This document shows positions 24,238 to 28,559 of a DNA stretch of 36,904 nt, in pieces. Origin of the DNA: a virus. The stretch spans positions 1 to 36,904 of the IMG/VR virus record IMGVR_UViG_3300049846_000686; one strand, written 5' to 3'. The notes beneath the pieces were generated by a model, which saw nothing but the letters and a program-made list of their open reading frames with translations, was not told the DNA's origin and ran no database searches. Numbering within the stretch: position 1 is the stretch's first letter; every line of letters begins with the position of its first letter. Both the position numbers and the translations under genes were made by a program.

Positions 24238-24489
24238 TTAATATATTTCAAATTTCACCTTTACTCGTATGCTCAATTTATCAGCGTAGTTCAGAAGAAG
24301 TCCTACCTTAATCTTTCCCGACTCCAAGTCTATGATTGATCGTCTTGTTGTATTCAGCCAGTCAGCCATGAACTCCTGAGTGAACCCCGCTTCCTTCCTT
24401 GTTTCAATGCAAGTCTTTAGGATCTCGTTGTACGTCTTTTTGAACAGATCTACATTCGAATGTTCAAATTTGGTTACATCTGTATTCAT
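24238..24489 (-). CDS. Helix-turn-helix regulator, XRE/Cro-CI type
   Basis: 83 residues. ARKEAG-FTQEFMADWLNTTRRSIIDLESGKIKVGLLLNYADKL (about 32-75; actual first residues ETRKEAG) is a standard Cro/C1-type HTH: FTQEFMADWL (helix 2), TTRRSIIDLE (recognition helix) and the closing GKIKV turn. The protein is small enough to be a Cro-like repressor. It lies just downstream of the hairpin at 24526-24554, so its promoter or operator may be in that junction, though I see no TAnnTTTG box there. Confidence 0.8.
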   Translation of the reverse strand: MNTDVTKFEHSNVDLFKKTYNEILKTCIETRKEAGFTQEFMADWLNTTRRSIIDLESGKIKVGLLLNYADKLSIRVKVKFEIY

Positions 24490-24525
24490 ATCTTATTGTC
24501 TTTCAGTTATGGCGGGTATACGGTA

Positions 24526-24554
24526 GTTATGCGGCATTAAAACGACCGCATAAC
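24526..24554. repeat. Junction hairpin 1, conserved CATTAAAACGA loop
   Basis: Stem GTTATGCGG (24526-24534), loop CATTAAAACGA, stem CCGCATAAC (24546-24554): 9 perfect pairs. The 29 bases, plus the following AC, are identical to junction hairpin 4 at 27396-27424, almost 3 kb away. No T-run follows on either strand, so it is not a normal terminator. Immediately right, ACGGGCTT starts the inverted repeat of cassette V. Confidence 0.9.
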
Positions 24555-24583
24555 ACGGGCTTGGCAAAATATTTAAACAAAGC

Positions 24584-24940
24584 CTACGCACGGGTTAAGT
24601 GCTTAATAAGTAAATACACCCCATCATTTACACCTGACCAATAAAAGTCCTTATCTAATGTCGGGTTGTTCTTACTCCATTCGTCTATAAAGTCATCGAC
24701 AAGTTTTTTGGCTTCGTCATGCGTTGGTATGTGCATATTGATCTCTGCCGTTAATTCAAATAATTGCCTTGTAAGTTCTCTATTGTCATCAATAACAGGC
24801 AATCTGTAATCTTTAGCAAATGACATTATCATATCCTTAACACCTTCTTTTGTGTATTCGCCACTTATTGCCTGTTTAGCTATAATGTCAGCCCATGCCA
24901 ACGATGACTTTTCAAACTTTTTTAATTCTTTCTTTTCCAT
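24584..24940 (-). CDS. Hypothetical helical protein (118 aa), cassette V
   Basis: 118 residues, acidic and alpha-helical (ELTRQLFELTAEINMHIPTHDEAKKLVDDFIDEWSK). No motif recognised. It overlaps the zinc-finger gene by 29 bp, so the two are coupled. Its stop TAG lies 3 bp from the left cassette arm. Base composition is more AT-rich than the structural genes, as in the rest of the accessory stretch. Confidence 0.65.
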   Translation of the reverse strand: MEKKELKKFEKSSLAWADIIAKQAISGEYTKEGVKDMIMSFAKDYRLPVIDDNRELTRQLFELTAEINMHIPTHDEAKKLVDDFIDEWSKNNPTLDKDFYWSGVNDGVYLLIKHLTRA

Positions 24941-25136
24941 GTTCTAATATAGTTATTAATTGTTTGTATTCTTTTACTTTCTTATCACATTCCAAGTGGA
25001 AATATAGTGTTTCATCAAGTTCCCACATTGAATAAATTTCTTTAAATCCAATCTTAACGGCACTTGTTGAACGCCCAACACCTCCATTTTCCCACTTCAT
25101 AAATTTACCACAATGGCAACATCTTAATTTTTCCAT
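24912..25136 (-). CDS. Small zinc-finger protein (74 aa), cassette V
   Basis: 74 residues from ATG 25136. A longer frame would need a TTG at 25169 inside the cassette arm, so the shorter start is preferred; AAAAGGGTAGG precedes it. CCHCGKFMKWENGG (5-18) and YFHLECDKKV (44-53) give C-x2-C and H-x2-C pairs, a zinc-binding set. Function unknown; small zinc-ribbon proteins of this type are frequent in phage accessory regions. Confidence 0.7.
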   Translation of the reverse strand: MEKLRCCHCGKFMKWENGGVGRSTSAVKIGFKEIYSMWELDETLYFHLECDKKVKEYKQLITILEHGKERIKKV

Positions 25137-25179
25137 ATTCCTACCCTTTTTGTTTAAATACTTCGCCAAGCCCGAAAAC

Positions 25180-25217
25180 GTTATGGCGCATTAAAACGCC
25201 ACTTCGTTCGCCATAAC
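25180..25217. repeat. Junction hairpin 2, variant loop
   Basis: Stem GTTATGGCG (25180-25188) and CGCCATAAC (25209-25217), 9 perfect pairs. The loop starts with CATTAAAACG like the other junctions but is extended to 20 nt. The stem differs from hairpins 1 and 4 at two positions on each side, and both sides change together. Outside the stem, AGCC/GGCT segments could extend pairing weakly. Confidence 0.85.
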
Positions 25218-25233
25218 ACAGGCTAAAACGACA

Positions 25234-25454
25234 ATTACTTAAACTTTTTTACTCACGCTCAATGAACTTACTATATTTAATATATTGGTCACAATATTCG
25301 TGCTTCCCAGCACCAGCATCTTCATTCTCCAACTGGTATCCTAATTTTTTTAATCGTTTACGTTCTTTTTTAGCTTGTTCAATTTCTTTTTCAGAATAAT
25401 AAACATCTACATAAGTATATTTTCGTATTTCCATCGCTCAAAAGTTTAAGTAAC
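25234..25454. repeat. Cassette IV: one gene bracketed by a 15-bp inverted repeat
   Basis: Arms 25234-25248 (ATTACTTAAACTTTT) and 25440-25454 (AAAAGTTTAAGTAAC) match at 14 of 15 positions. They enclose only the 61-residue gene at 25249-25434. The left arm abuts its stop codon with no gap, and the right arm lies 5 bp upstream of its ATG. This is the smallest and most cassette-like unit of the array. Confidence 0.8.
25249..25434 (-). CDS. Small hypothetical protein (61 aa), cassette IV
   Basis: 61 residues: an N-terminal strand (MEIRKYTYVDVYYSEKE) then a Lys/Glu-rich helix (IEQAKKERKRLKKLGYQLE). Beta strand plus basic helix could be a nucleic-acid or protein-inhibitor fold, but no family is recognised. 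It fills its cassette completely, from 5 bp after one arm to the base before the other. Confidence 0.65.
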   Translation of the reverse strand: MEIRKYTYVDVYYSEKEIEQAKKERKRLKKLGYQLENEDAGAGKHEYCDQYIKYSKFIERE

Positions 25455-25483
25455 TGCGTTTAGCCTAATACCGTTAGGTGCAA

Positions 25484-26146
25484 TTAAGTTTTTAAAAAAT
25501 TGGCGGTCTGCTTCACGGAAGCAGTAAGATGTTGCTCGTATAAGTGTAAGTTGTTTACAAAGTGATAATACCACCCCACTTTTAACGCTAATTTTAAAGA
25601 AACTAACTCTTGTAACTTACTAAAGCAATACTGGTCATTACAAAACCCATACCAGAGGTCATTAGAACGCATTAGAACAGTCATATTTAATCTAGTGTCA
25701 GTTATATTGAAAACAATATTTAACGTGCAAGGAGTGTCAAGAGAATGCTTCTCGTGCTCTTTCCCGTCATAAATAGACAATACTGCGCGTCTTGAATTGG
25801 GATTTTTAGTTAATTCATCAATAACGAAGTCTAATTGATTGCTTCTACTCCATTGATAACCATAGTTTGAATTAACTAAATTATCGCCATTGTGCATTTT
25901 ATCCCAAATTTTAGCATGTTTCTTTATCTCAGAAACATCTCTATTTTTTGACAAATACCATTCCCATTCTAAATCTGCATAAGAATTTTTCCACTTTCTA
26001 AATGAAGTATTAATTTGATTATTGAGTGGATTATCTATATAAAATCCTACATTTTGAAGAAACATTGTATTATCAAGTTTATTTCCTTCTTGTGTTATTT
26101 TATTATAGAAAAATTCAAATGCTTCTTGCGCTTTATTAAATCTCAT
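25484..26146 (-). CDS. ThyA-fold pyrimidine C5-transferase, probable dCMP hydroxymethylase
   Basis: 220 residues with ThyA-family motifs in order: WYLSKNRD (64-71), NSNYGYQW (92-99), NPNSRRAVL (115-123), catalytic Cys140 in DTPCTLNIV, RSNDLWYGFCND (160-171) and NNLHLYEQH (198-206). Thymidylate synthase has Asn (E. coli N177) where this protein has Asp171. In T4 gp42 the same Asp selects cytosine, and its neighbouring residues RSND-x3-GF-x-ND are the same. The likely product is 5-hydroxymethyl-dCMP, though a dUMP substrate cannot be excluded. It is co-translated with a MazG-like gene (ATGA). Its last codons (NFLKT-stop) lie in the cassette inverted repeat. Confidence 0.75.
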   Translation of the reverse strand: MRFNKAQEAFEFFYNKITQEGNKLDNTMFLQNVGFYIDNPLNNQINTSFRKWKNSYADLEWEWYLSKNRDVSEIKKHAKIWDKMHNGDNLVNSNYGYQWSRSNQLDFVIDELTKNPNSRRAVLSIYDGKEHEKHSLDTPCTLNIVFNITDTRLNMTVLMRSNDLWYGFCNDQYCFSKLQELVSLKLALKVGWYYHFVNNLHLYEQHLTASVKQTANFLKT

Positions 26147-26448
26147 AATTGTTCTTTTACAAAAGTTCCATTTTCCATTTTACCCGTTCTTTTCGCAATA
26201 ACATTATAAGCGGAATTTATGCAATCTTCTATGTTATAACCTTTTAACTTTGCTAAGTTTGTAAGAACAACGACACAATCTCCAATTGCATCAATAAATT
26301 CAGGTTCATCATTTTTCAATATAGCTTTTGAAAGTTCTCCCGCTTCTTCGAAAAGTTTAATACATTGAGTTTTCGGATCTCCTTTTTGAAATATTCCTTT
26401 TTGTTCTGCCCAATCTCTTATTGATTGAAATTCATTTTTTAGTTCCAT
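26143..26448 (-). CDS. MazG-like nucleoside triphosphate pyrophosphatase
   Basis: 101 residues, an all-alpha NTP-PPase domain. KLFEEAGELSKAI (31-43) followed by EFIDAIGDCVVVL (50-62) gives the metal-binding E-x2-E...E-x2-D pattern (E34/E35/E38, E50, D53, D57). Such enzymes hydrolyse dNTPs to dNMPs. With a dCMP hydroxymethylase next to it, a dCTPase role like T4 gp56 (a different fold) is attractive: it would supply dCMP and keep unmodified dC out of the DNA. Overlaps neighbours by 4 and 10 bp. Confidence 0.8.
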   Translation of the reverse strand: MELKNEFQSIRDWAEQKGIFQKGDPKTQCIKLFEEAGELSKAILKNDEPEFIDAIGDCVVVLTNLAKLKGYNIEDCINSAYNVIAKRTGKMENGTFVKEQL

Positions 26449-26615
26449 ATTAATGAGTTTATTTGTTTTGAATAGGTTTTTGTTTCAGTTTTTATTTTGC
26501 AGTATTCTTTTTTATCTGTTCCAATGAACAATTTTAAAACTTCTCCTTCGATAGTTTCATTTTGTCCTTTTGGAATAAATTTCACTTTCATTCCAACCTC
26601 GATTTTGTTTTTCAT
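26439..26615 (-). CDS. Small basic protein (58 aa), cassette III
   Basis: 58 residues, MKNKIEVGMKVKFIPKGQ then ETIEGEVLKLFIGTDKKEYCKIKTETKTYSKQINSLIWN. Alternating strands with VGMKVKF and GEVLKLF suggest a small SH3/KOW-like barrel. ATGA overlap with the upstream gene and 10-bp overlap with the MazG-like gene show it is translated. Function unknown. Confidence 0.7.
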   Translation of the reverse strand: MKNKIEVGMKVKFIPKGQNETIEGEVLKLFIGTDKKEYCKIKTETKTYSKQINSLIWN

Positions 26616-26887
26616 TTTGATTTGTTTTTATTGTTTATATAATTGTTAAGTGCTCCAATGTAAGCTACAGCATCAAGAAGATTGTCCTCTTTGTGATTAA
26701 ATGATTCTCTTGATAGTTTCAGCGCTATTAATGCTTTAAACATCTCTATTGCAGTTAATTTCAATCCTGTCATTGAGTTGAATAACTCAGCAGCTTTGTC
26801 CATACTATCGTCAAAGTTGCCATACATGCGTTCTTTTTCTTCAGAACGTTCATTAACTATTTTATTTGCTTGTTCTAATATATTCAT
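26612..26887 (-). CDS. DUF6378-like phage protein (91 aa)
   Basis: 91 residues. ERMYGNFDDSMDKAAELFNSM (19-39) and MFKALIALKLSRESFNHKEDNLLDAVAYIGAL (49-80, in segments) match the pattern of a phage domain I know as DUF6378, found next to nucleotide-metabolism genes. The all-helical fold with E, D and K at fixed positions resembles the NTP-PPase superfamily, so a nucleotide-related role is possible. First gene of cassette III. Confidence 0.65.
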   Translation of the reverse strand: MNILEQANKIVNERSEEKERMYGNFDDSMDKAAELFNSMTGLKLTAIEMFKALIALKLSRESFNHKEDNLLDAVAYIGALNNYINNKNKSK

Positions 26888-26949
26888 ACGTTTTTTATTT
26901 TTCTTCGAAAAATCGCCAATTTTTTAAAAACTTAACAGACACCTAACAC

Positions 26950-26983
26950 GGGCTAAAAGTGCATTAAAACGACACTTTAGCCC
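26950..26983. repeat. Junction hairpin 3, best attC-like site
   Basis: Stem GGGCTAAAAGTG (26950-26961) with CACTTTAGCCC (26973-26983): 11 pairs plus one bulged A, around the loop CATTAAAACGA. Outside lie CCTAAC at a 2-nt spacing on the left and, after GATCC, GTTATAGG on the right. The order R-box, 2-nt spacer, L-box, loop, L-box, 5-nt spacer, R-box with one extra-helical base is that of integron attC sites. The stop TAA of the gene at 26990 lies in the right R-box, another attC habit. Confidence 0.85.
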
Positions 26984-26988
26984 GATCC

Positions 26989-27278
26989 GTTATAGGGCAT
27001 TTTGGACAGCACTCCGAATATCATCAACTGATCGAGTTGTGAAAATACTTAATACTTCAAATTCCCAATCTTCACTTGGTTTTGGAATGTGTTTTATTAA
27101 AGTTGATTGCGTTCTGTGCCATTGTAGTGTTTCTTCGGGTGCTTTGTAACTTGCATCATTATAATTCCACTGTAAATCTTTAATAAAATCTGTTTTGTCA
27201 GTTGGTATTTTTTCAATCATCTGACTAATAATTTGGCAACAATTTCTCATTTTGTTTGAATTAAAAACGCCCTATAAC
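26989..27278. repeat. Cassette II: one gene bracketed by a 15-bp inverted repeat
   Basis: Arms 26989-27003 (GTTATAGGGCATTTT) and 27264-27278 (AAAACGCCCTATAAC) match at 14 of 15 positions and enclose the 86-residue gene at 26990-27250. The left arm contains the gene's stop codon; the right arm is 13 bp before its ATG. Both arms end in GTTATAG, so each abuts a hairpin junction. Confidence 0.85.
26990..27250 (-). CDS. Hypothetical protein (86 aa), cassette II
   Basis: 86 residues starting MRNCCQIISQMIEKIPTDKTDFIKDL, with Trp-rich middle (LQWNYND, LQWHRTQ, EDWEFEVLSIFTT). No family recognised. The stop codon is part of the left cassette arm (GCCCTATAAC on the minus strand), as is usual for genes in integron cassettes. 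AT-rich relative to the virion genes. Confidence 0.6.
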   Translation of the reverse strand: MRNCCQIISQMIEKIPTDKTDFIKDLQWNYNDASYKAPEETLQWHRTQSTLIKHIPKPSEDWEFEVLSIFTTRSVDDIRSAVQNAL

Positions 27279-27280
27279 AT

Positions 27281-27390
27281 ACGCTATACAAAAGCAGGGG
27301 CTTTACTGCTAATACAAGCGGTGTGCATCTATTTATCATTTGTGGTAGGCTGAAAGGGAGTGCATCTTAACCCCTGCCTTCGTATAGCGT
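27281..27390. repeat. Long-arm hairpin between cassettes (20-bp arms, 70-nt loop)
   Basis: Arms 27281-27300 and 27371-27390 pair at 18 of 20 positions (ACGCTATAC outermost, GCAGGGG innermost). Outside them stand CTATAAC with a 2-nt spacer (27272-27278) and GTTATGC with a 5-nt spacer (27396-27402). With those boxes the whole element 27272-27402 has the size and layout of a long, VCR-type attC site. The 70-nt loop contains no ORF. Confidence 0.85.
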
Positions 27391-27395
27391 CAGCC

Positions 27396-27424
27396 GTTAT
27401 GCGGCATTAAAACGACCGCATAAC
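27396..27424. repeat. Junction hairpin 4, identical to hairpin 1
   Basis: Stem GTTATGCGG (27396-27404), loop CATTAAAACGA, stem CCGCATAAC (27416-27424). It is identical over 31 nt to the copy at 24526. On the minus strand the gene at 27397-27594 reads through it and stops at the TAA inside the left stem, so the last nine residues are encoded by the hairpin. Confidence 0.9.
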
Positions 27425-27594
27425 ACCTGCCTATTTGTTGCTCCTTCATGTAAATTAAAGTGTCTTACTTTTTGCCCATCAATCACAAATTTACAATGAG
27501 TATAGGCAGGATGTTCTGTTGGTTCACCATGTAATTGGCAGTGAGTTGTATAAGCCCCACATTGCTTTGTTGATATTATCATTTTTCTTTTCAT
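27397..27594 (-). CDS. Small hypothetical protein whose C-terminus is encoded by a junction hairpin (65 aa)
   Basis: 65 residues. C12, C19, C34 and C59 and several His (YTTHCQLHG, YTHCKF) suggest metal binding or disulfides. Residues from about VLCGRFNAA on are encoded by the repeat hairpin and end at a TAA inside GCATAAC. The tail is therefore probably acquired from the junction rather than ancestral. No flanking inverted repeat was found for this gene, unlike its neighbours. Function unknown. Confidence 0.6.
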   Translation of the reverse strand: MKRKMIISTKQCGAYTTHCQLHGEPTEHPAYTHCKFVIDGQKVRHFNLHEGATNRQVLCGRFNAA

Positions 27595-27631
27595 CTCTAA
27601 AATTTTAGTTTACTAAATAAAGCCCCGAACG

Positions 27632-27802
27632 TTATGTACAATTTATTTTTTTACTTTTTGCCAGCGCACGTTTTACATATTTAGTAATCGGTTCAATTAG
27701 TGATTTAGGAACACGAAAAGAAATTGTTTTAGTTTCTTCTTTGTATTGGCTTTTACGACCTGCGTTAGGTCTTTTGCCTCCGTGTTTATTTTCCGTTTTC
27801 AT
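27632..27802 (-). CDS. Small basic protein, possible ribbon-helix-helix DNA-binding protein (56 aa)
   Basis: 56 residues: MKTENKHGGKRPNAGRKSQY, then KTISFRVPKSLIEPITKYVKRALAKSKK. The GGKRPNAGRK leader followed by a T-x-S-F-R-V-P strand and a helix is the layout of small RHH-type proteins that recur in Bacteroidetes. A DNA-binding or antitoxin-like role is plausible. The start overlaps the upstream gene by 17 bp; the stop TAA lies in the cassette arm (ACATAAC). Confidence 0.7.
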   Translation of the reverse strand: MKTENKHGGKRPNAGRKSQYKEETKTISFRVPKSLIEPITKYVKRALAKSKKINCT

Positions 27803-27971
27803 CTATCCAATTCTTTGCTTTTTCTATAGAGTTTTCCGAGCCATCCAAAAAAATATCACCTGCAATACATTTTACAATATCATTGCCTTTGTAAATAATA
27901 CAAGTATGCATTTTTACATCTGTTCTTTTTTGGATATTAAATCCTTTGTAATTTTCGTTTGAATGTGTCAT
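27786..27971 (-). CDS. Small hypothetical protein (61 aa), cassette I
   Basis: 61 residues: MTHSNENYKGFNIQKRTDVKMHTCIIYKG, then IAGDIFLDGSENSIEKAKNWIDENGK. Beta-strand rich followed by a C-terminal helix (SIEKAKNWID). No family recognised. It is led by a good Bacteroidetes-type promoter (27996-28029) and precedes the RHH-like gene with a 17-bp overlap; together they might form a toxin-antitoxin-like pair, though nothing beyond size and order supports this. Confidence 0.6.
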   Translation of the reverse strand: MTHSNENYKGFNIQKRTDVKMHTCIIYKGNDIVKCIAGDIFLDGSENSIEKAKNWIDENGK

Positions 27972-27995
27972 AATGTTCTGTTTTTAATTATACAT

Positions 27996-28029
27996 CAAAT
28001 ATACGCACTTATTTTGATTCTGTAAACAA
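27996..28029 (-). promoter_or_regulatory. Bacteroidetes-type promoter for cassette I
   Basis: On the minus strand TTG (28029-28027) is followed after 23 nt by TATATTTG (28003-27996), matching the TTG-N17-23-TAnnTTTG consensus. The first ATG downstream is at 27971. It is inside the cassette arms, so the cassette carries its own promoter, unlike typical promoterless integron cassettes. Confidence 0.6.
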
Positions 28030-28112
28030 TTTCAAGATTATTTTTGTTAAATTATGCAACTAATTGAAAACCACCCCTAAAAAGTAAAAAATAAACTGGT
28101 ACATAACAGCAC

Positions 28113-28139
28113 ATTGGCGGCATTAAAACGACCGCCAAT
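28113..28139. repeat. Junction hairpin 5, conserved loop with a different stem
   Basis: Stem ATTGGCGG (28113-28120), loop CATTAAAACGA, stem CCGCCAAT (28132-28139), 8 perfect pairs. The loop equals that of hairpins 1, 3 and 4, but the stem differs from theirs on both sides. It ends the row of inverted-repeat units on the right. Next to it (28145-28206) AACGT/ACGTT and GTGGC/GCCAC segments form a weaker, longer attC-like element around the stop of the gene at 28200. Confidence 0.88.
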
Positions 28140-28199
28140 CTGCAAACGTTGGTGGCAATTAGGCAACCCGCAATAAAAAGCTGCTGGCAGGAGCCACGC

Positions 28200-28559
28200 T
28201 CACGTTACTTGTCTAAACGGCCTGTTACATTTTGGGCAAGCAGTTCCTAAGTAAAATCCTGCTATATCTTTACATCCATCGCACACGCTTTTTGCCGACC
28301 CTTCGTTGCCTAACTGTTCGGGCTTGCTGTTTTGTGGTTTATTGTAGTTTGGTATCGTTGGGTCAATTCCTGTACCTTGACAGTTTGGACACTTCGGAAG
28401 CAAGCCCCCACCAACACTATGTATATTCAATTTTTGCTTAGTGAGTGCGTACAATTCCATTTTCTCAATCCACTCGTGTTCTTCTAATCTAATGTCGTAC
28501 CCGTTCGACACTGCTTCTTCTATTTTAGGGTCTGTTAATAAAAACTCTCGTGCTGTCAT
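28200..28559 (-). CDS. DnaJ-type zinc-finger protein (119 aa)
   Basis: 119 residues. CPNCQGTGI (57-65) is a C-x2-C-x-G-x-G motif of the DnaJ central domain; CDGCKDIAGFYLGTACPKCNRPF (93-115) holds two further C-x2-C pairs. The first 50 residues are helical and acidic. It probably binds zinc and assists protein folding or DNA-protein contact. A second phage protein with C-x2-C-x-G-x-G motifs lies at 33283. No overlap with neighbours; 52 bp separates it from the upstream small membrane gene. Confidence 0.65.
   Translation of the reverse strand: MTAREFLLTDPKIEEAVSNGYDIRLEEHEWIEKMELYALTKQKLNIHSVGGGLLPKCPNCQGTGIDPTIPNYNKPQNSKPEQLGNEGSAKSVCDGCKDIAGFYLGTACPKCNRPFRQVT

Follow-up and report, generated by a model that had tools for sequence, protein, structure and literature searches.

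Organization of the cassette array

The DNA analysed here is the whole 36,904-base IMG/VR virus record IMGVR_UViG_3300049846_000686 (hereafter, the window). Its plus strand carries genes for phage head, portal and tail tape-measure proteins, and its minus strand those for a DnaB-like helicase and primosomal proteins. Nonlabens phages have a related portal protein, and one cassette gene has a relative in Bacteroides phages, on which grounds a Bacteroidota host is likely and the record probably represents a phage infecting that phylum. Between positions 24527 and 28148, a row of small minus-strand genes is divided by hairpins and enclosed by long inverted repeats; we consider it likely that this row is an array of mobile gene cassettes, part of an integron-type system found in Bacteroidota and in their phages.

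An earlier note, made from the letters of this DNA, had described five back-to-back units, each bracketed by its own inverted repeat. All five were found at the positions given there (arm identities of 92%, 94%, 100%, 14/15, and 86%), with every array gene on the minus strand and with stop codons that coincide with the left arm or lie no more than a few bases from it. The count was incomplete, a sixth unit (27398-27631) and a 20-nt repeat (27281-27300/27371-27390) having been overlooked. The arms are 17-30 nt long in most units, and 300 dinucleotide shuffles of 24300-28400 gave 0.01 repeats scoring ≥16 per shuffle versus 3 observed, which confirms their rarity in shuffled sequence and rules out chance inverted repeats. 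The junction hairpins reported in the note are also present, five of them (A, B, C, D, and F) sharing the core GCATTAAAACG; the brackets, lumped together there, fall into two mirror-image classes, built of R boxes or of L boxes. An Rfam search returned zero matches in the window, by which known RNA families were rejected, and blastn of the 66-nt site F found no match among named phages. When the array is cut at AA^C, the segment 24527-28148 resolves into six cassettes with one gene-bearing chamber each, the other chamber being a short hairpin loop in five of the six and a 112-nt non-coding stretch in cassette 3. The units drawn from arm to arm in the note are not the mobile units, which run from AA^C to AA^C, and correspond to the cargo chambers of cassettes 6, 5, 4, 3, and 1. 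Each cassette combines cargo with one recombination site and has ends that pair with each other, as in integron gene cassettes.

Cassettes 1 and 4 are of type i, in which a hairpin is followed by R-bracketed cargo. In cassette 1 (27632-28148, minus strand), the attC-like hairpin F (28108-28147, minus strand) is capped at its L end, with R'' at 28148-28156 and R' from 28107, and scores 67.6 bits (28089-28160) against R1, a covariance model built from the site family described below. The arms, GTTATGTACCAGTTTATTTTTTACTTTTT at 28079-28107 and its partner at 27631-27659 (29 nt, 86%), enclose minus-strand open reading frames (ORFs) of 61 (27786-27971) and 56 (27632-27802) amino acids. The start of this cassette (R' arm and upstream, 27968-28112) is 85.5% identical over 145 bases to positions 579174-579314 of LR756502.1 (locus L345), a 642-kb uncultured phage. 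Cassette 4 (25474-26989, minus strand) opens with hairpin C (26948-26988, minus strand), also attC-like and capped at the L end, with a compensated stem and an R1 score of 54.9 bits. Its arms (25484-25505/26914-26935; 22 nt, 100%, extended by 8 nt at 25473-25480/26940-26947) bracket four ORFs, to which Pfam assigned a thymidylate-synthase fold (220 amino acids), a MazG-like protein (101 amino acids) and DUF6378 (91 amino acids), the remaining one having 58 amino acids. The thymidylate-synthase-fold gene is related at the DNA level to the deoxycytidylate 5-hydroxymethyltransferase gene of Bacteroides phages BF503P1 and relatives, and together with the MazG-like pyrophosphohydrolase and DUF6378 genes it makes cassette 4 (25484-26887) a nucleotide-modification set.

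Cassettes 2, 5, and 6 are of type ii, in which L-bracketed cargo precedes a hairpin capped at its R end. Cassette 2 (27398-27631, minus strand) has weak L arms around a 65-residue ORF (27397-27594), followed by the inside-out hairpin D (27397-27425, minus strand; GTTATGCGG-TCGTTTTAATG-CCGCATAAC), a 29-mer of which identical copies occur in two further viral contigs. The reading frame of this ORF continues across hairpin D to a stop codon within the R'' box, and the final residues (..CGRFNAA) would thus be supplied by the hairpin. In cassette 5 (25181-25473, minus strand), arms at 25232-25248/25440-25456 (17 nt, 94%) enclose a 61-residue ORF (25249-25434) ahead of the R-capped hairpin B (25180-25217, minus strand), the loop of which is lengthened. 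Cassette 6 (24527-25180, minus strand) contains two ORFs, 24912-25169 (85 amino acids) and 24584-24940 (118 amino acids), between arms at 24556-24581/25149-25174 (26 nt, 92%), and ends in the R-capped hairpin A (24526-24555, minus strand). Cassette 3 (26990-27397, minus strand) combines both kinds of bracket: the 20-nt L repeat at 27281-27300/27371-27390 encloses the non-coding stretch, and is followed by an 86-residue gene (26990-27250) between R arms (GTTATAGGGC..GCCCTATAAC, 26989-27003/27264-27278) that match at 14/15 positions by reading of the sequence.

A family of hairpin sites in two forms

The exact core 15-mer, which reads GGCATTAAAACGACC on the plus strand and GGTCGTTTTAATGCC on the gene strand, occurs in at least 119 viral stretches; the strand reading GGTCGTTTTAATGCC in the loop, the minus strand in the window, is called the R1 strand. 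Matches in loci L007, L029, and L043 are one coding sequence, and were rejected as chance occurrences and excluded from the site set. In most viral copies, the two sides of the stem vary from case to case yet still pair, with ..AAC on one flank and GTTR.. on the other. A gapped pattern detected the site in 71 genome contigs, nearly all of Bacteroidota, including Winogradskyella, Aquimarina, Maribacter, Tenacibaculum, Crocinitomicaceae, and Saprospiraceae. Among 66 aligned sites, both sides have changed in 8 of the 13 predicted pairs; the invariance of the core is partly due to the search pattern, and the R1 model also finds altered cores.

The order of the site, R''-L''-loop-L'-R', is the layout of integron attC sites, and both the box order and the pairing of attC are present in hairpins C and F and in the family alignment. 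Hairpins A, B, and D have the same box pairing in reversed order: the GTT..AAC boxes adjoin the loop, and L-type boxes lie outside. This inside-out form was recognized in 10 of 11 candidates among the loci collected. The corresponding pattern, TGTT-N6-TCGTTTTAATG-N6-AACG, occurs in at least 119 viral stretches versus ~0.3 expected by our own estimate, and all nine bases beside the loop are paired in 92 of 107 unique contexts. It was not found in 22 host genomes, which together hold 131 ordinary sites.

Unit boundaries, gain or loss, and sharing of cassettes

In the all-versus-all comparison of viral loci, breaks in homology are concentrated at the R''|L'' junction (AAC|G), to within a few bases, and not at L'|R'. 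The clearest case is given by loci L262 and L265, from different metagenomes, which share 6.1 kb at 99.6% identity, differ by a 752-bp unit present only in L262, and resume at 98% homology. Dropping this unit, which appears to encode a DNA methyltransferase, at CTAA^C yields the L265 sequence exactly over 60 compared bases. The breakpoints and the exact unit place the joint inside the R box (G^TT/AA^C), as in attC recombination, and on sequence grounds the mobile unit extends between the AA^C positions of successive R'' boxes. That each cassette then has a single gene-bearing chamber supports AA^C independently as the correct cut, and such a clean division suggests a single folded site (R box - spacer - L box) with a mini-loop able to close it at either end. 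A frame cut at L'|G^TT was rejected: breakpoints do not cluster there, and two cassettes would have genes in both chambers and one would have none.

Units are also shared between unrelated surroundings. The earlier note had proposed looking for the same genes with swapped neighbours, and the segment 28150-27631 (cassette 1) indeed recurs at ~90% identity in L010, L054, and L078, with unrelated flanking DNA on either side. The 86-residue gene of cassette 3 recurs in L430 at 95% amino acid identity, with homology stopping at the AA of R'', and the 118-residue protein of cassette 6 has a 71% amino acid relative in L427 that sits in an R chamber, the window copy being in an L chamber. L261 has a copy of the non-coding part of cassette 3 at 100% identity, with another gene held between the same arms. 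In L010, it is the first gene of cassette 1 that differs, in the otherwise conserved segment.

Such sharing bears on the best-placed alternative, ordinary homologous recombination between phages, in which the hairpins and promoter stretches would be short anchors and the arms terminators or structural leftovers. It accords with the different genes held between conserved arms in L261 and L010, and the hairpins are alike enough to serve for anchoring. Against it, the breakpoints fall within 1-2 nt of AAC|G, and the only bases common to both sides of the L262/L265 joint, GCTAAC, are too short. We therefore regard homologous recombination as an improbable account of the array as a whole; it also leaves unexplained the pairing of each cassette with its own ends, to which we now turn.

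Pairing of cassette ends and predicted folding

In integron cassettes, the R' box at the start is expected to pair with the R'' box of the same cassette, since both are brought together in the free circle. The earlier note had taken arms pairing across the gene as a departure from integrons; in itself, such pairing is none. What is unusual in the window is the length of the pairing and the bracketing of half of the units by L rather than R boxes. In 108 stretches lying between neighbouring R1 sites, the first bases match the reverse complement of the last ones in 61-76% of cases at positions 3-8, compared with 26-57% for swapped loci, and R-bracketed arms scoring ≥10 amount to 7.4% versus 0.3% for swapped pairs. 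For L brackets, in an anchored test, upstream partner arms score ≥10 in 59% of 93 cases and in 1.2% of mismatched loci (Mann-Whitney p 7e-32). Position 10 of the arm is nearly always mismatched in the 108 cassettes (9% identity) though its neighbours pair, and this fixed bulge may be a recognition feature.

Folded as single-stranded DNA, site C in its array context gives a predicted energy of -11.9 kcal/mol, and the predicted circle form of cassette 4 one of -39.6 kcal/mol (z -13.3 versus shuffles). An R-capped circle-type site, composed of the end arm of cassette 6 joined to hairpin B and illustrating the fold, reached -34.6 kcal/mol (z -9.1 versus shuffles); the circle forms are predictions. 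The long arms may stabilize the fold or serve another purpose.

A recombinase linked to the sites in host genomes

The earlier note had recorded no integrase in the window, and no tyrosine recombinase was found in the 36.9-kb record, which may be a fragment, including by a Pfam PF00589 search. Most of the 22 host genomes (~100 Mb) encode a third recombinase of ~375 amino acids, distinct from XerC and XerD, with an N-terminal extension of ~100 residues. TIGR02249 (integron integrase) was matched in 22 of 22 host genomes, never over the cut-off, a search that is uninformative by itself because XerC/D give matches in 14 of 14 control genomes. NF040815 ('site-specific tyrosine recombinase/integron integrase') scored over its cut-off in three of the five third recombinases tested. 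In the alignment with IntI4 (2a3v; residues 13-178 and 248-317), the third recombinase has ~27 residues where IntI4 has ~70, and therefore lacks the IntI-specific segment (I2).

Twenty-six of the 131 R1 sites in these genomes lie within 15 kb of the 24 third-recombinase genes (~1 expected). No site comes closer than 30 kb to any of the 45 XerC/D genes. All 11 sites at ≤5 kb are situated beyond the 3' end of the recombinase gene, on the opposite strand. In 9 of 18 cases, a palindrome directly follows the recombinase stop codon with GTTR a few bases on, compared with 0.6% of shuffles; judged by its sequence, it resembles the attI site at the start of a first cassette. The host recombinase thus has an adjoining attI-like site and a cassette array, as IntI enzymes do. 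About 100 of the 131 sites are away from the recombinase, and cassettes or single sites are therefore scattered in the host chromosomes. A related recombinase also stands together with sites in some viral contigs, two such genes containing stop codons; array copies broken in this way are seen in L346, L361, and G016:C3, so that certain arrays may no longer have an enzyme of their own.

Proposed mechanism and alternatives

These observations, from the site family, the pairing of own arms and the unit boundaries to clean gain or loss and recombinase linkage, would fit the following mechanism. A cassette would consist of one cargo chamber with at least one gene and, usually, one short hairpin with the loop TCGTTTTAATG. 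In a putative free single-stranded circle, its R boxes would pair together and its L boxes together, the long arms extending the stem, and the paired ends would make up a single folded site for recombination (R box - spacer - L box). A mini-loop capping the L end, with cargo beyond R, would give type i, the ordinary attC form; one capping the R end, with cargo beyond L, would give type ii. A tyrosine recombinase acting in trans would join cassettes at AA^C, and it is most likely the XerA/IntI-like recombinase adjoining such arrays in hosts and in some phages, which we infer to act on these sites, those of the phages included. The phage may thereby gain or lose small accessory genes, such as those for DNA methyltransferases and nucleotide metabolism.

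Several points weigh against an integron-type system. The candidate recombinase has no I2 segment, the IntI-specific insertion between the conserved catalytic boxes that is considered necessary for recombining single-stranded attC (PMC7790495). With no integrase in the window, activity in this phage would depend on supply in trans. Clean gain or loss of a single unit was seen once only (L262/L265), and some changes swap the gene and keep the arms (as in L261, and in L010 for the first gene of cassette 1), which calls for a second process, probably homologous recombination. The strict attC consensus (GTTRRRY/RYYYAAC) fails as well: GTTRRRY occurs in only 12 of 65 viral and 3 of 43 host cassettes, GTTR in 65 of 65 and 40 of 43. 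Finally, the site numbering (attC2) used by Qi et al. for the Polaribacter phage discussed below is not matched to coordinates.

The hairpins could instead be transcription terminators or RNA-processing elements and the arms long stem terminators, with no dedicated mobility. The genes do all point in one direction with hairpins between them, and weak termination has been ascribed to attC sites (PMC9892861). This reading is very unlikely, since the stems lack a following U-run, the loop is conserved on one strand though host genes run the opposite way, and neither the linkage of the sites to a recombinase nor the exact gain or loss of a unit would be accounted for. Least credible of all are single-strand transposon-like units (HUH/Y1, of the IS200/IS605 or REP type) whose hairpins are recognized by a Y1 transposase in trans: hairpin ends and absent target duplication would be compatible with them, but each unit has one hairpin instead of two subterminal ones, its boundaries fall inside the R box, and the array-linked enzyme is a tyrosine recombinase with an attI-like site, though no search aimed at Y1 transposases was made.

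Relation to known systems

The earlier note knew of no phage system of such layout, but attC arrays without an integrase (CALINs) in phages, including Polaribacter phage P12002L, were published in 2023 by Qi et al. (PMC9892861). The integron analogy drawn in the note held, and reaches further than the letters alone could show (an attC-like family, exact gain or loss of one unit, shared cassettes, and integrase-bearing host relatives); the note's interpretation as a whole is partly supported. The window lacks the integrase gene that a complete integron has in the same element, and corresponds to a CALIN (at least two attC sites, integrase absent) with its two ordinary and three R-capped sites. 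By anatomy its array groups with phage CALINs; the strict R-box consensus and the IntI test of the linked recombinase fail. It resembles P12002L in the integrase-less attC array, the setting in a virulent Bacteroidota phage and the DNA methyltransferase cargo of such arrays, and differs in having both classes of site. Qi et al. noted that the attC directions of P12002L are divergent, and showed that the bottom strand of one of its two sites recombines with attI1 via IntI1, the top strand giving no recombinants (PMC9892861). The R1 model scores the P12002L sites at 74.4, 56.6, and 49.4 bits, and at least one P12002L site thus has experimental support for its function. R-capped sites, long own arms, the difference in cargo direction between phage and host, and the recombinase are not described for P12002L in that paper. 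Phage attC arrays are therefore already known; no description of R-capped sites was found in the accessible literature.

Sedentary chromosomal integrons, such as the Vibrio superintegron, share with the present system the G^TT/AA^C bounds, R and L boxes, a folded site, and a recombinase with an adjoining attI-like site from which the cassettes point away. Here, however, the recombinase is XerA-like, has no I2 segment and an N-terminal extension of ~100 residues, and points towards the array; the sites have a fixed 15-nt loop, and the R boxes are GTTRNNN rather than GTTRRRY. The array recombinase belongs to the same protein subfamily (NF040815, 230 bits) as XerA, XerC, and XerD, which act at dif and at the pdif modules of plasmids. 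Unlike XerC and XerD, it is a third paralogue in most genomes examined and is linked to hairpin arrays; a dif site, for its part, is short and double-stranded and has no hairpin. IntegronFinder 2.0 reported for Bacteroidetes only In0 elements and one complete integron, in Salinibacter (PMC9024848), and literature searches, which covered few subscription papers, found no paper describing such arrays in Bacteroidota.

In the present analysis, arrays of hairpin cassettes, together with a linked recombinase and an attI-like site, extend across Flavobacteriia and related groups, and such arrays also occur in many of their phages. Whether Bacteroidota and their phages share a separate integron class, with a XerA-type recombinase without the I2 helix, folded sites capped at either end, and a phage pool of opposite cargo direction, we hold to be evenly balanced. 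The I2 segment is thought necessary for single-strand attC recombination and held to be its key innovation (PMC7790495); if the recombinase acts on these sites, it does so without that helix, which is directly testable. For phages, the arrays offer a concrete route for swapping small accessory genes one at a time, including methyltransferases that may counter restriction. The R-capped site separates box order from the loop-bearing end, two properties always confounded in known attC sites.

Cargo direction in phages and hosts

In 62 of 65 viral cassettes, the R1 strand carries the longest ORF; in 37 of 43 cassettes taken from genome contigs, the other strand does. The isolated phage P12002L shows the viral arrangement as well, its sites and the methyltransferase genes beside them lying on the minus strand throughout. 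On the reading of a separate integron class, this opposition would keep phage and host cassettes apart in expression. Behind the R' arm, 14 of the 65 viral R-bracketed cassettes have a TACGGATTA-like motif, possibly a phage expression signal, which is present in 0 of the 43 host cassettes.

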